64,000 nt of DNA from assembly GCF_000763375.1 (NCBI RefSeq), contig NZ_JPSY01000001.1, forward strand, positions 434,001 through 498,000. Direction: 5' to 3'. The position numbers and the translations under genes are program-made. This DNA is from Microbacterium profundi (GTDB lineage: Bacteria > Actinomycetota > Actinomycetes > Actinomycetales > Microbacteriaceae). Each line of letters starts with the position of its first letter. The stretch's first letter is position 1. Positions 10,971-17,502 of this stretch are shown piece by piece. The notes beneath the pieces were generated by a model. The model saw only the letters and a program-made list of their open reading frames with translations, searched no databases and was not told where the DNA came from.

Positions 10971-12388
10971 CCGACACTCACCAGCGCAGCGGCGAAGAAT
11001 CGCAGGGCTACCGCATCGAGCACGACACCATGGGCGAGGTCCGTGTGCCAGTGAACGCACTGTACGGTGCGCAGACGCAGCGTGCAGTGGAGAACTTCCC
11101 GATCTCGGGCAAGGGCCTGGAGCCGGCGCAGATCGCCGCCCTCGCGCGCATCAAGAAGGCGGCGGCGCTCGCGAACAAGGAGCTCGGCACCCTCGACGGC
11201 GCCATCGCGGATGCCATCGCCGCTGCCGCCGACCGCGTGGCCTCTGGCGCGCACGACGACGAGTTCCCGGTCGACACCTACCAGACCGGTTCGGGCACCT
11301 CGTCGAACATGAACATGAACGAGGTGCTGGCGTCCATCGCCTCCAGCATCCTCGGCTCGGCTGTGCACCCGAACGACCACGTGAACGCGTCGCAGTCGTC
11401 GAACGATGTGTTCCCCACCTCCGTGCACATCGCCGTCACCCAGGCGCTCATCGACACGCTGATCCCGTCGCTGCACCACCTCGCCGTCGCCCTCGAGGCG
11501 AAGGCCGATCTGTGGAAGGATGCCGTGAAGTCGGGCCGCACGCACCTCATGGACGCGACGCCCGTCACCCTCGGCCAAGAGTTCGGCGGCTACGCCCGCC
11601 AGATCCGCCTCGGCATCGAGCGCGTGCAGTCCGCTCTCCCCCGCGTCGCCGAGGTGCCGCTTGGCGGAACGGCCGTCGGCACCGGCATCAACACGCCGCT
11701 CGGCTTCCCGCAGAAGGTCATCGCGCTGCTCGCGGAGGAGACCGAGCTGCCGATCACCGAGGCGAAGGACCACTTCGAGGCTCAGGCCAACCGCGACGGC
11801 CTGGTTGAGGCATCCGGCGCTCTTCGCACGATCGCGGTGTCGCTGACGAAGATCAACAACGACCTGCGCTGGATGGGCTCCGGCCCGAACACCGGCCTCG
11901 GCGAGATCCACATCCCGGATCTGCAGCCCGGCTCGTCGATCATGCCCGGCAAGGTCAACCCGGTCATCCCGGAGGCCGTGCTGATGGTCTGCGCCCGCGT
12001 GATCGGCAACGACGCGACCGTGGCATGGGCGGGAGCATCCGGAGCGTTCGAGCTGAACGTCGCGATCCCCGTCATGGGCACGGCGCTGCTGGAGTCGATC
12101 CGTCTGCTGTCCAACGCCTCACGCGTGCTGGCCGACAAGACGATCGACGGTTTGAAGGCGAACACCGAGCGTGCGGCCGCGTTCGCCGGGATGTCGCCGT
12201 CGATCGTGACGCCGTTGAACAAGCTCATCGGCTACGAGGCAGCGGCGAAGATCGCCAAGCACGCCGTCGCCCAGGGCGTCACGGTGCGCGATGCCGTGAT
12301 CGACCTCGGCTACGTCGAGCGCGGCGAGCTGACGCTGGAGCAGCTCGACGAGAAGCTCGACCTGCTCTCGATGACCCACCCGGGCTGA
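10967..12388 (+). CDS. fumC: Class II fumarate hydratase
   Basis: FumC interconverts fumarate and malate in the citric acid cycle without an iron–sulfur cluster. The superfamily signature [11 protein letters not shown] is at about residues 322–332, and [15 protein letters not shown] and [14 protein letters not shown] are intact. The GTG at 10967 overlaps the stop of the carbonic anhydrase gene, and AAGGAGGG (10953–10960) lies six bases before it, which decides this start. Length is 473 residues, normal for the family. Palindromic element A begins 12 bp after the stop and may also stop transcription. Confidence 0.95.
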
Positions 12389-12400
12389 GTCCGGGTCACC

Positions 12401-12487
12401 TGTTCCACCTGTCGGAGCCTGTTGCGCCCGTCGGAGGTTTTGTCGAAAATCCTCCGACACCTGCAACAGGCTCCGCCGTGTGTAACA
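12401..12487. repeat. 87-bp palindromic element, copy A
   Basis: Two 37-bp arms (12401–12437 and 12451–12487) pair at 29 of 37 positions around a 13-base centre. Each arm is two tandem copies of a 19-bp unit with consensus TGTTGCACCTGTCGGAG plus two bases. It lies between the fumC stop and the broken ASCH gene, and its right edge is exactly where ASCH coding sequence stops. It could act as a bidirectional terminator. Confidence 0.85.
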
Positions 12488-12675
12488 TCCCGGCATCCGT
12501 TATCGATCACGATCGCCCGGTCGCCGACGGCAGGCAGCGGCTCGCCCTCGCGCTCGTACCCTACGACGAGTGAGGTCGTTGACGTCTTCTCGCCGCTGAG
12601 GATCGCCCCGACGAGCTGGTCGCGAAGCGGGCCGGGAAATGCGTACTCGGATACCGGCAGGTCGGTTTCAGGCAT
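12488..12675 (-). pseudogene. Truncated ASCH-domain protein gene
   Basis: From the ATG at 12675 the first ~62 residues match the start of an ASCH domain, including SGEKTSTTSL and VGDRAIVID, the RNA-binding-type fold related to PUA. The family is usually about 130–170 residues. Here the coding sequence runs straight into palindromic element A, whose first bases (minus strand TGTTACA) directly follow the last recognisable codons. The frame continues through the element to about 12310 but reads only repeat sequence and antisense fumC. The C-terminal half of the domain is therefore missing and the gene is very likely dead. Confidence 0.75.
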
Positions 12676-12711
12676 CCGCTCAGCTTACCCACGGATGCTG
12701 GCCTCCACGCG

Positions 12712-12798
12712 TGTCGCGGCCGCCGGAGTGTGTTGCACTTGTCGGATCATTTCGGCCGATTCCTCCTACGGGTGTCACACTCTCCGACGCATGCAACG
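12712..12798. repeat. 87-bp palindromic element, copy B
   Basis: It has the same 37-13-37 layout as copy A (arms 12712–12748 and 12762–12798), with centre ATTTCGGCCGATT. The outer left unit is the most degenerate (12 of 19 bases match consensus). It lies between the divergent ASCH remnant and the DUF559 gene, 86 bp before the DUF559 start, so it could also serve as an operator. Nothing else is supported in 12676–12883. Confidence 0.75.
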
Positions 12799-12883
12799 CG
12801 CCCACTCTTCCTCCACATTCCGGTTCTCGTCGATCAACGGTGGATAGCCTCACCCAAGCGCTTGGACGCACCATCGTAGAAGC

Positions 12884-13717
12884 ATGCTCGATCCATCGCA
12901 GACCATCGAACGCCTTGGCGGTATCGCACGAGGCTCTCATCTACAGCGCCTCGGCCTCACCCGTACGCAATTGTCACGCGCTGTTCGCGCAGGAAAGGTT
13001 CAGCGAGTGCGCCCCGGCGTCTTCGCCACGCGCGACCTCAACGGCGACATTCGCACGGCCGCGACGCATGGCGGGGCGCTTACCTGCGCTTCCGCGCTGC
13101 GCGCTCATGAAGTCTGGGTGCTTCCCGATGACGACGGACTCCACGTCTGGATGGGACCGAGCGGTCGCGTGCACAACCATGCTGACTGCTCATGCACCAG
13201 CCACTTCTACACTGGTACGCCGCCATTCGGGTATGCCTCGATCGAGACGTCGCTGCTGCATCTGCGGCGTTGCGCCGGCGACGAGGCGTTCTTCGCCGCA
13301 TACGAATCCGCGCTTCGGCTGAAACTGCTGCGGAGGGCTGCTCGACAACGCCTAATTGCAGCACTGCCAGCATCCGCTCGTTGGCTCGTCGACATCGCCC
13401 GAACCAACGCCGACAGTGGTCTCGAATCTCTGCTGCGGCTGCGTCTGCATCTTCTCGGCATCCGACTCGACTGTCAGGTCGAGATCAGCGGTGTCGGGAT
13501 AGTCGACTTCGTCATCGGCGGACGTCTCATCTTGGAGGCCGACGGCAAGGTGAACCACGACGGCAAGATGCGCCACAAGGATCTGGTGCGGGATGCTGCC
13601 GCCTCCGCGCGCGGGTATGAGACTCTGCGATTCGACTACGCGCAAGTTCTGTACGACTGGCCCACTGTGCAAGCGGCCATCATCGGTGCGCTGCGCCGTC
13701 TGCGTGAATACGCCTGA
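12884..13717 (+). CDS. AbiEi-type HTH plus DUF559 nuclease-like protein
   Basis: This 277-residue protein joins two domains. Residues 1–55 form a winged-helix domain like that of AbiEi antitoxins (IERLGGIARGSHLQRLGLTRTQL). Residues ~180–277 form a DUF559 domain, related to Vsr and PD-(D/E)xK endonucleases, with candidate catalytic residues in VDFVI (Asp ~207) and LEADG (Glu ~217) and a following His. Such proteins are common and variable in actinobacteria, and their role is not established. It is flanked on both sides by 87-bp palindromic elements (B and C) and sits between housekeeping genes, which looks like a small acquired patch. No toxin gene lies beside it, so calling it an antitoxin would be unsafe. 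Confidence 0.85.
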   Translation: MLDPSQTIERLGGIARGSHLQRLGLTRTQLSRAVRAGKVQRVRPGVFATRDLNGDIRTAATHGGALTCASALRAHEVWVLPDDDGLHVWMGPSGRVHNHADCSCTSHFYTGTPPFGYASIETSLLHLRRCAGDEAFFAAYESALRLKLLRRAARQRLIAALPASARWLVDIARTNADSGLESLLRLRLHLLGIRLDCQVEISGVGIVDFVIGGRLILEADGKVNHDGKMRHKDLVRDAAASARGYETLRFDYAQVLYDWPTVQAAIIGALRRLREYA

Positions 13718-13730
13718 TGCGGCAATCCGC

Positions 13731-13817
13731 TGTTACATCTGAAGGAGACTGTCACACCTGTCGGACACTTTCGCCGGAAAGCTACGACAGGTGCAACACC
13801 CTCCGACAGGTGCAACA
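13731..13817. repeat. 87-bp palindromic element, copy C
   Basis: Arms 13731–13767 and 13781–13817 flank the 13-base centre CTTTCGCCGGAAA and pair at 26 of 37 positions. It begins 13 bp after the DUF559 stop and ends 18 bp before the end of the convergent PhoH gene, so a bidirectional terminator role is possible. Confidence 0.85.
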
Positions 13818-13835
13818 TGGCCCAACCATCGACTT

Positions 13836-15197
13836 TCAGTTGAGCTCCCCGCCCTCCAGCAGCTCCGTGACGAGCGCCGCGATGGCCGAGCGCTCCGAGC
13901 GCATCAGCGTCACGTGCGCGAACAGGTCGTGGCCCTTCAGCGTCTCGATCACCGAGGCGATGCCGTCGTGGCGGCCGACGCGCAGGTTGTCGCGCTGTCC
14001 GACGTCATGTGTGAGCACCACCCGGGAGTTCTGACCCATCCGGCTCAGCACCGTCAGCAGCACGTTGCGCTCCAGCGACTGCGCCTCGTCGACGATCACG
14101 AAGGCGTCGTGCAGCGAGCGGCCGCGGATGTGCGTGAGCGGGAGGACTTCGAGGATGCCGCGCTCGACGACCTCTTCCATGACGTTGCCCGAGACCACCG
14201 AGCCGAGGGTGTCGAAGACCGCCTGACCCCACGGGCCCATCTTCTCGCCCTGGTCGCCTGGCAGGTATCCGAGCTCCTGCCCGCCGACCGCGAACAGCGG
14301 GCGGAACACGATGATCTTCTTCTGCTGCTGCCGCTCGAGCACCGCTTCCAGCCCGGCGCACAGTGCCAGGGCCGACTTGCCCGTCCCTGCGCGACCTCCG
14401 AGCGAGACGATCCCCACATCGGGGTCGGTGAGCAGGTCGATCGCGATGCGCTGCTCAGCGGAGCGGCCGTGCATCCCGAACAGCTCGCGATCACCGCGCA
14501 CCAGCTTGTATTCGCCGTCGCCGCTGATGCGTCCCAGTGCCGATCCGCGCTCGGAGTGGATGATGAGACCCGTGTTGACCGGAAGCCCTCGGGCCGCCTC
14601 GCTGATGCCGACCTCGCTCTCGTACAGGTCGCTGATCTCGTCGCCTGAGAGGTCGAGGTTCGCGATACCGGTCCAGCCGGAGTCCACGGCCTGCTCGGCG
14701 AGATACTCCTCGGCCGAGATTCCGAGAGAGGCGGCCTTGACCCGCATCGGCAGGTCCTTGGAGACGATCGTGACTTCCTGCCCGTCGTCTGCCAGGTGCA
14801 TGGCCACCGCGAGGATGCGGCTGTCGTTGTCGCCGAGGCGGATGCCGCTGGGCAGCACCGATCCGTCGGTGTTGTTCAGCTCGACGCGCAGCGTGCCGCC
14901 TTCGCCGATGGGCACGGGGAAGTCGAGTCGTCCGTGCTCGATTCGCAGCTCATCCAGGTGCCGGAGCGCCTGCCGCGCGAAGTAGCCGATCTCCGGATCG
15001 TGACGTTTGCCCTCGAGCTCCGTGATCACGACGACCGGAAGAACGATCGAGTGCTCTGCGAAGCGGAAGAACGCCTGCGGATCCGACAGCAGCACCGAAG
15101 TGTCGAGCACATAGGTGCGAACGTCCTGATCCGACTTCCCTGAGGATGCCCGACGCGAGGACTGACGGGTGGACTGCTGTGCTGTACGTGTGGTCAC
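13836..15197 (-). CDS. PIN–PhoH family ATPase (PhoH2-like)
   Basis: This 453-residue fusion has an N-terminal PIN ribonuclease domain with acidic residues Asp32 (LDTSV), Glu60 (TELEGKR) and Asp123/Asp125 (GDNDSR). The C-terminal PhoH ATPase domain has Walker [10 protein letters not shown] (268–275) and Walker B VIVDEAQ (Asp370, Glu371). Characterised mycobacterial PhoH2 unwinds and cleaves RNA in an ATP-dependent way and is encoded after a small antitoxin (PhoAT). I see no such small gene just upstream here, where 15198–15380 is non-coding with no feature I can support. The gene is convergent with DUF559, separated by palindromic element C. Confidence 0.92.
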
Positions 15198-16516: not shown

Positions 16517-16725
16517 CTTCGACAGGCTCAGCGAGCGAGACAAGCTCAGCGAGCGAGACAAGCTCAGCGAGCGAGACAGCTCAGCGAGCGAGACAGCTCA
16601 GCGAGCGCGACAGCTCAGCGAGAGCGACGGCTCAGCGAGCGAGACAAGCTCAGCGAGCGAGACAAGCTCAGCGAGCGAGACAAGCTCAGCGAGCGAGACA
16701 AGCTCAGCGAGCGCGACGCTCAGCG
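16517..16725. repeat. Tandem array of a 17/18-bp unit (12 copies)
   Basis: Twelve copies of a unit starting GCTCAGCGAGCGAGACA begin at 16526, 16544, 16562, 16579, 16596, 16613, 16630, 16648, 16666, 16684, 16702 and 16718. Spacings are 18, 18, 17, 17, 17, 17, 18, 18, 18, 18 and 16. The array starts as the dispersed repeat cttcgacaggctcag and its last copy contains the uppS stop codon (16720–16722). It fills nearly all the space between uppS and the aminotransferase start. Confidence 0.95.
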
Positions 16726-17502
16726 TCCGAAGCGCCGATCCCGGTCGACGTAGTCGCGGATAGCCCGCAGGAAGTCGACCTGGCGCAGGTCCGGTCCCAG
16801 TGCTTCCACGAAGTAGAACTCGCTGTGCGCGCTCTGCCAGAGCAGGAAGTCGCTGAGTCGCTGCTCGCCGCTCGTGCGGATGACGAGATCCGGATCGGGC
16901 TGGCCGCCGGTGTAGAGGTGCTCGCCGATCATCTCGGGCGTGAGGTGTGCTGCGAGATCCTCCATGGTTCCGCCTGACGCGTCGTGCTCGGCGATGATCG
17001 AGCGCACGGCGTCGACGATCTCGTTGCGCCCGCCGTAGCCCACTGCGAGGTTCACGTGCAGACCCGAATGCCCGGTGGTGCGCTCCTCCGCGTCGCGCAG
17101 CACGCGTGCCAGTTCGTCGGGAAGGATGTCGGAGCGGCCGACGTGCTTGACCCGCCAGTCGCCGTTCTGAGCGAGCGACTCCGCGAGCTCGGCGATGATC
17201 TCGATGAGATCGGCGATCTCCTTGGAGTCGCGCTTTCGCAGGTTGTCGCTGGAGAGCAGATACAGCGAGACGACGCGAACTCCGATGTCGTCGCACCAGC
17301 CGAGGAACTCCCGCATCTTGGCCGCGCCGGCGCGATGGCCGTCGGCGGGAGAATCGAGACCCAGTTGACGCGCCCAACGACGGTTGCCGTCGATCATCAT
17401 CGCGACGTGATGCGGGACGGATGCCGGATCCAGCTGTCGCCGGAGCCTCTTGCCGTACAGCCGGTACAGCGGCCCCCGGCCCTCGCTCGTGCGTGCATTC
17501 AC
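16720..17502 (-). CDS. uppS: Isoprenyl transferase (undecaprenyl diphosphate synthase type)
   Basis: This cis-prenyltransferase builds the C50–C55 lipid carrier for cell-wall synthesis from IPP. Of its 260 residues the key ones are visible: Asp38 in MIDGNRRWA (Mg/diphosphate site), LYLLSSDNLRKR, and VIRTSGEQRLSDFLLWQSAHSE with the IPP-binding Arg/Ser. The actinobacterial form may make decaprenyl or undecaprenyl chains; the sequence does not settle this. The stop codon lies inside the last copy of the downstream tandem repeat, so the repeat has grown right up to, or into, the 3' end of the gene. Divergent from the TrhA-like gene. Confidence 0.95.
   Translation of the reverse strand: MNARTSEGRGPLYRLYGKRLRRQLDPASVPHHVAMMIDGNRRWARQLGLDSPADGHRAGAAKMREFLGWCDDIGVRVVSLYLLSSDNLRKRDSKEIADLIEIIAELAESLAQNGDWRVKHVGRSDILPDELARVLRDAEERTTGHSGLHVNLAVGYGGRNEIVDAVRSIIAEHDASGGTMEDLAAHLTPEMIGEHLYTGGQPDPDLVIRTSGEQRLSDFLLWQSAHSEFYFVEALGPDLRQVDFLRAIRDYVDRDRRFGR

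Follow-up and report, generated by a model that had tools for sequence, protein, structure and literature searches.

Gene-specific palindromes of four 19-bp units flank AbiEi_4-DUF559 nuclease genes in Microbacterium: a candidate REP-like system

Among described repeat systems, the one closest in logic to that reported here consists of repetitive extragenic palindromes (REPs) and REP-associated tyrosine transposases (RAYTs; TnpA-REP, 'REPtrons'). As set out in parts of PMC2817692 and PMC3733652, a nuclease gene there stands between two palindromes of gene-specific sequence, gene and palindrome show correlated divergence, dispersed copies are tied to the cognate gene, and orthologous genes keep palindromes while the palindrome sequence changes; these features are shared by the system described below. 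REPs are described as short palindromes of 20 to 40 bp, mostly GTAG- or CGTC-tagged (PMC3733652), that usually exceed 100 per genome (PMC2817692). For AbiEi, of the AbiE type IV toxin-antitoxin system, two 23-bp inverted repeats are the reported binding sites; Rv2827c is reported to bind four, the members of each pair lying 13 bp apart (PMC7319586). The endonuclease I-Bth0305I is reported to dimerize on a very long DNA target, almost 60 bp (PMC3943268). Here, we analyzed 64,000 nucleotides of Microbacterium profundi (contig NZ_JPSY01000001.1, positions 434,001 to 498,000; the window), in which three palindromes, A, B, and C, accompany a gene encoding a 277-residue AbiEi_4-DUF559 protein. We consider it fairly probable that these palindromes are a REP-like family of sites belonging to that gene, the AbiEi part of the protein binding the repeated units, the DUF559 domain cutting, and repair spreading the copies.

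The palindromes are 87 bp each with a 37-13-37 layout and contain four 19-bp units apiece (Table 1), as had been claimed in an earlier note made from the letters of this DNA alone, whose counts of 29 (A) and 26 (C) paired positions per 37 also held; B has 23. At one fixed center and the composition of the window (67% G+C), the chance of such pairing scores is 3e-10 for A, 1e-5 for B, and 1e-7 for C, and A scored 82.4 bits by covariance model R1. The unit TGTTGCACCTGTCGGAG, allowing at most 4 mismatches in 17, matched 11 times inside A to C and 5 times in the rest of the 64 kb; by the same criterion, the numbers in three mononucleotide-shuffled sequences were 3, 1, and 0. The 13-base center follows the TTTCGnCGAAA motif given in that note only loosely. 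What the note missed is that the palindromes border the AbiEi_4-DUF559 nuclease gene, which stands between B and C, and are its cognate sequences.

This arrangement recurs across the genus. Around the first 80 such genes of the genus listing (about 10 kb each, five loci shorter), a finder based on self-complementarity alone (43-nt arms, 260 bp either side of the gene) placed a palindrome with at least 66% pairing upstream of 30 genes, downstream of 30, and on both sides of 15; at 62%, 48 of the 80 had one on at least one side. Control windows 1, 2, 3, and 4 kb further out yielded 2, 0, 2, and 1 palindromes upstream (5/313) and 1, 0, 0, and 0 downstream (1/312), counting those windows that lay wholly within the fetched DNA. 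When the 60 flanking palindromes were pooled, a 19-nt period was evident in the arms (identity 0.47 vs. 0.24 to 0.33 at other periods) and pairing fell to background more than 43 nt from the center, which, given finder arms of 43 nt, shows only that the arms are not longer. Together, the period and the arm extent indicate that the geometry of A to C is general, whereas their sequence is not. After the gene in two related genomes (G009 and G078; loci L184 and L195), two palindromes stand in a row in one and three in the other, with spacers between them, and alignment of the two genomes revealed no clean junction at the difference.

Each gene carries its own palindrome sequence. At the 21 loci with palindromes on both sides at 62% pairing, window palindrome B having been added by hand, the upstream and downstream copies were 49 to 95% identical (median 74%), compared with a median of 37% between palindromes of different loci, and in 17 of the 21 the upstream copy was the best match of the downstream copy among the other 68 palindromes. 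Palindrome similarity tracked protein similarity across 46 loci (Mantel r 0.42, p 0.0005), with r between 0.34 and 0.42 for each protein part taken separately. Even at a single site, between fumC and phoH, the gene occurs with quite different palindromes in several species.

Further copies stand alone, dispersed through the genome. A covariance model of the window family, trained on six copies, each taken in both orientations, found at least nine strong full-length copies in the 3.37-Mb Microbacterium genome, namely A, B, C, and six outside the window, as well as at least four weaker places at E < 0.001 and at least three more at E about 0.02; as scoring covered the best 150 of 1532 candidates, all these counts are minimum values. 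At two of the weaker places (C1:513562 and C1:1677705), the palindrome of another gene was the better match. At E ≤ 0.01 the same model matched at least 26 of 58 genomes (24 of 35 in the genus, counting our own, plus 2 of 23 outside it), again lower bounds, as part of the first-look candidates were scored. With open reading frames (ORFs) judged by codon-position G+C, 8 of 15 solo loci were clearly intergenic and five (L026, L028, L036, L233, and L238) lay at or over an ORF end or had the start uncertain; of the remaining two, L032, a weak match, lay inside a 446-codon ORF, and the position of L034 was not clear-cut. At G000:C1:1419063-1419217, a window-family palindrome stands about 30 bp from a 37-bp piece of a C1:654850-family palindrome, on which basis different families may share insertion sites.

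All five AbiEi_4-DUF559 genes of the genome have solo copies of their palindromes: seven for C4:246404, eight for C1:654850, and two for C2:77490 at E < 0.003 (three of these partial), and six for the fifth gene, C1:593172. Specificity was also evident when six palindromes of six genes, one per genome, were compared with all six genomes, the best 40 of 41 to 63 candidates being scored in four of them. Every home genome held the flanking pair plus two to seven solo copies (one of the four in G029 being a 34-bp piece), while 28 of the other 30 cells were empty and one held a 31-bp match at E 0.0098. The last cell, that of G065, was filled because G065 has a gene that matches the one of G034 at 71% protein identity, with palindromes up to 89% identical. 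Copies in this test therefore occurred only where the cognate gene was present.

At the orthologous sites compared, relatives lack the copy present in our genome. Between tmk and holB, where our genome has a C4:246404-family palindrome in a 174-bp gap, no match to it was found anywhere in the locus in 29 relatives, 25 of which have gaps of 28 to 118 bp. Copy E of our genome, between dppC and dppD, is missing from six relatives. One of these, G065, carries at that site a palindrome of the family of its own gene. In our genome and in G065, dppD reads through its palindrome without a stop, with 324 and 313 codons vs. 300 to 304 in four relatives without one; the two palindromes are unrelated and lie at about the same place in the two species (dppD frames at L026 1467-2441 and L281). 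At phoH, 79 genomes matched and 30 loci were fetched, in nine of which (own included) fumC could be placed beside phoH. The fumC-phoH gap of G083 is 68 bp with only a hairpin, and G064 has the order palindrome-ASCH-palindrome without the gene, compared with palindrome-ASCH-palindrome-gene-palindrome in our genome. The gene is present at the other seven loci, and in six of these the finder detected one palindrome or more. In the seventh (G022, L209), where the finder detected none, a hairpin of about 50 to 60 bp occurs on both sides of the DUF559 gene, whose orientation is opposite to that in the other placed species. The earlier note had called for further copies and empty orthologous sites, and both were found. 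Its suggestion of a mobile REP-like unit of defined structure is supported, the copies being of fixed length, dispersed through the genome (at least six strong ones outside the window), and missing from the corresponding sites of relatives.

Its other suggestion, selection on symmetry, is not supported for this family. Symmetry in the window family stems from four copies of one 19-bp unit: across the nine copies, identity was 0.67 between paired units, 0.71 between tandem units, and 0.69 between unpaired opposite units. The covariation between arms that it had expected was not found in these copies, with 75.4% standard pairs vs. 74.6% after shuffling and 151 of 500 shuffles equaling or exceeding the observed value. 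A hairpin selected for arm pairing is thus unsupported for this family, and the similar unit identities and lack of covariation are better explained by duplex binding sites, which, judged from sequence, are the likelier form. Among the 60 flanking palindromes, paired units were more alike than unpaired opposite ones (0.73 vs. 0.54), a comparison biased by their having been chosen for pairing. Tandem units are unlike in one protein group (identity 0.34; 15 palindromes, L146-L167, 43 to 52% protein identity to the window protein), compared with identities of 0.63 and 0.61 in the two remaining groups, and equality of all four units is therefore not a universal feature.

On the 277-residue protein, Pfam identified DUF559 and AbiEi_4 only, and no Transposase_17. 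Residues 1-173 are predicted from a structural model to form an AbiEi-like module, and residues 178-275 a Vsr/I-Bth0305I-like nuclease with an EDxHD/Vsr-like fold and conserved acidic and His residues; the structural neighbors of the latter domain include a homing endonuclease (PDB 3r3p, 3hrl, and 1cw0 were compared). DUF559 is listed in Pfam as a domain of unknown function, and homologs are annotated as 'DUF559 domain-containing' or 'very-short-patch-repair endonuclease'. At least one match (E ≤ 1e-10) occurs in 56 of 59 Microbacterium genomes.

Beyond the genus, the window protein at E 1e-12 matched 2 of 149 genomes of the phylum, its own and one other, and a Herbiconiux protein at E 1e-15 matched 53 of 198 genomes of the order, in 22 of 72 genera. 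A palindrome with at least 66% pairing was found within 330 bp of the protein match at 9 of 22 loci outside the genus, a count of matches only, without control windows; the 13 loci without one may differ in geometry or lack palindromes. Look-alike upstream and downstream pairs (72 to 95% identity) occur at five of the 22 (L354, L356, L358, L363, and L369), in three other families of the order, with copies 344 to 465 bp away at two.

A second feature of these genes lies between the upstream palindrome and the start codon, where 9-mers that we take by consensus to resemble DnaA boxes are enriched. The pattern YYNTNCACA occurred 58 times on the coding strand in 80 × 200 bp before the starts and 6 times on the other strand, compared with 51 in 685,197 bp of control, and at least once at 44 of the 80 loci. 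Its strict form, TTNTNCACA, occurred 17 times before genes (none on the other strand) vs. twice on both control strands. By a looser pattern, both boxes were present in 23 of the upstream regions (L117-L196), 27 to 28 bp apart in 21. In the window, the first box is clear and the second is not. A Herbiconiux genome (L310) has a box pair 27 bp apart before the gene, where the finder saw no palindrome. These elements may couple the gene to replication.

Neighbors of the gene in the window are fumC, phoH, and an ASCH-like open frame, and no search aimed at AbiEii toxin genes was made. Palindrome A lies directly after fumC, within the 3' part of the ASCH-like frame, which has a sub-threshold match (E 0.0027) to part of the ASCH profile and is probably truncated. 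Elsewhere in the window, an 18-bp unit, GACAAGCTCAGCGAGCGA, is repeated 11.7 times at 16521-16725, beside the 3' end of an ORF (16720-17502, minus strand) that resembles uppS.

Table 1. Palindromes, genes, and boxes of the locus (window positions)
Feature	Position	Strand	Description
Palindrome A (87 bp)	12401-12487		Units at 12401, 12420 (+), 12452, 12471 (-)
Palindrome B (87 bp)	12712-12798		Upstream palindrome of the AbiEi_4-DUF559 gene, center 129 bp before start
Palindrome C (87 bp)	13731-13817		Downstream palindrome, between the AbiEi_4-DUF559 gene stop and the phoH stop
ASCH-like open frame	12310-12675	-	Between A and B; end passes through palindrome A into fumC
Gene, 277-aa protein	12884-13717	+	Pfam AbiEi_4 (PF13338) residues 8-48, DUF559 (PF04480) residues 174-270
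TCCTCCACA, DnaA-box-like 9-mer	12809-12817	+	Of a type enriched in the stretch from upstream palindrome to start codon

The data show the layout of the palindromes, their placement around the gene and their specificity for it, the parallel divergence of palindrome and protein, the dispersal of copies, the empty sites in relatives, and, for the protein, a predicted fold with conserved acidic residues; binding, cutting, mobilization, and the repair route are what we infer. The repeat arrays of AbiEi and Rv2827c, as reported in PMC7319586, resemble the palindrome here, with its four 19-bp units around a 13-bp center. Together with the duplex-site pattern, they suggest that the AbiEi part would bind the units of its own family, two on each side of the center, and that the DUF559 domain would cut at the bound palindrome. 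Cutting and repair would generate new solo copies, maintain the likeness of the flanking pair, and sometimes copy the gene between two palindromes, and, as the gene diverged, the palindrome sequence would shift with its geometry retained. Several observations weigh against this model. No palindrome was found within 260 bp on either side of 32 of the 80 genes, even at 62% pairing, so at this sensitivity the association does not hold for every gene; copies per family are few (2 to 8 counted), unlike the more than 100 per genome usual for REPs; and neither a target-site duplication nor an exact insertion junction could be recognized. The AbiEi match of the protein model has low overall TM-scores (0.30/0.38), and the upstream palindrome lies 139 to 144 bp before the start in 12 of 31 loci, as an operator might. 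The correlation between protein and palindrome similarity does not separate co-adaptation from shared descent, which may by itself produce part of it, and solo copies could be spread by another enzyme.

The upstream distance, often the same, bears directly on an operator or regulon, in which the AbiEi part would repress its own gene through the upstream palindrome, the solo copies would be its regulon, moved by ordinary recombination, and the nuclease would serve elsewhere, for example in defense. AbiEi and Rv2827c are reported to autoregulate via 23-bp repeats upstream of their genes (PMC7319586), and in the window family it is the units that are conserved, not arm pairing. Such a role accounts for the upstream copy, but not for the downstream palindrome, which is equally common (30 and 30 of 80), or for the scattered copies, some of which lie where promoters are unexpected (after fumC; at the dppD start, in frame), though others precede genes (tmk-holB). 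As a full account we regard it as unlikely, if a serious contender, and as compatible with the REP-like explanation rather than exclusive of it.

The predicted kinship of the nuclease with a homing endonuclease raises the prospect of a homing-type selfish gene, whereby a solo palindrome would be cut and repaired from the gene copy, with palindromes as homology, to give palindrome-gene-palindrome. The gene-free fumC-phoH locus of G064, set beside our genome with its gene and extra palindrome, fits this sequence of events; yet it is a single site that gene loss by recombination between palindromes fits equally, and homing would account for how the gene spreads but not for how new solo sites arise. 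We hold it to be an improbable explanation. We give very little credence to miniature inverted-repeat transposable elements of an unrelated transposase that adjoin DUF559 genes by chance: the palindromes are indeed dispersed, of fixed length, often intergenic, and missing at the same sites in relatives, but chance would not be expected to surround the gene with palindromes of gene-specific sequence at many loci and in many genomes, and no common end sequence was evident among the families compared. Least credible of all is a role as transcription terminator or structured RNA. Gene ends do hold some of the palindromes, and some neighboring sites carry terminator-like hairpins, but palindromes also occur upstream of genes, the arms lack covariation, neither strand shows a run of T after A, B, or C, and Rfam gave no match near gathering score in 12300-13900 (two matches, E 0.19 and 0.38).

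The system lacks both the defining enzyme and the palindrome type of REP/RAYT, and is therefore separate from it. The enzyme here is AbiEi_4-DUF559, Vsr-like by fold, whereas RAYTs are described as HUH tyrosine transposases related to IS200/IS605; the sites are 87 bp of four 19-bp units rather than tagged stem-loops (PMC2817692, PMC3733652); and the hosts are actinobacteria, with no arm covariation in the window family. It shares with AbiE a predicted AbiEi-like fold (residues 1-173) and repeat arrays beside the gene (PMC7319586), but here the module is fused to a nuclease and its sites lie upstream and downstream of the gene as well as at dispersed places in the genome. The predicted nuclease fold is that of EDxHD/Vsr-like endonucleases such as I-Bth0305I (PMC3943268); in contrast to the latter, the gene here lies outside any intron and encodes an AbiEi-like DNA-binding part, and the target is deduced. 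No description of such a system was found in the open literature, most subscription journals lying outside that search.

We tentatively propose, as a possibility held with some doubt, a new class of bacterial mobile repeat system in which an antitoxin-derived DNA-binding module, fused to a Vsr/homing-type nuclease, has become the dedicated mobilizer of large four-unit palindromes. Gene and palindromes would change specificity together, one genome would harbor several such specificities independent of each other, DnaA-box-like elements would precede the gene, and the system would have arisen independently of RAYT/REP and extend to several families of the order. If this is true, AbiEi-fused DUF559 proteins would gain a role and a substrate, REP-like repeats would have evolved with an unrelated enzyme, and the many natural protein/site pairs would allow study of how DNA specificity shifts in step on the two sides of a gene.
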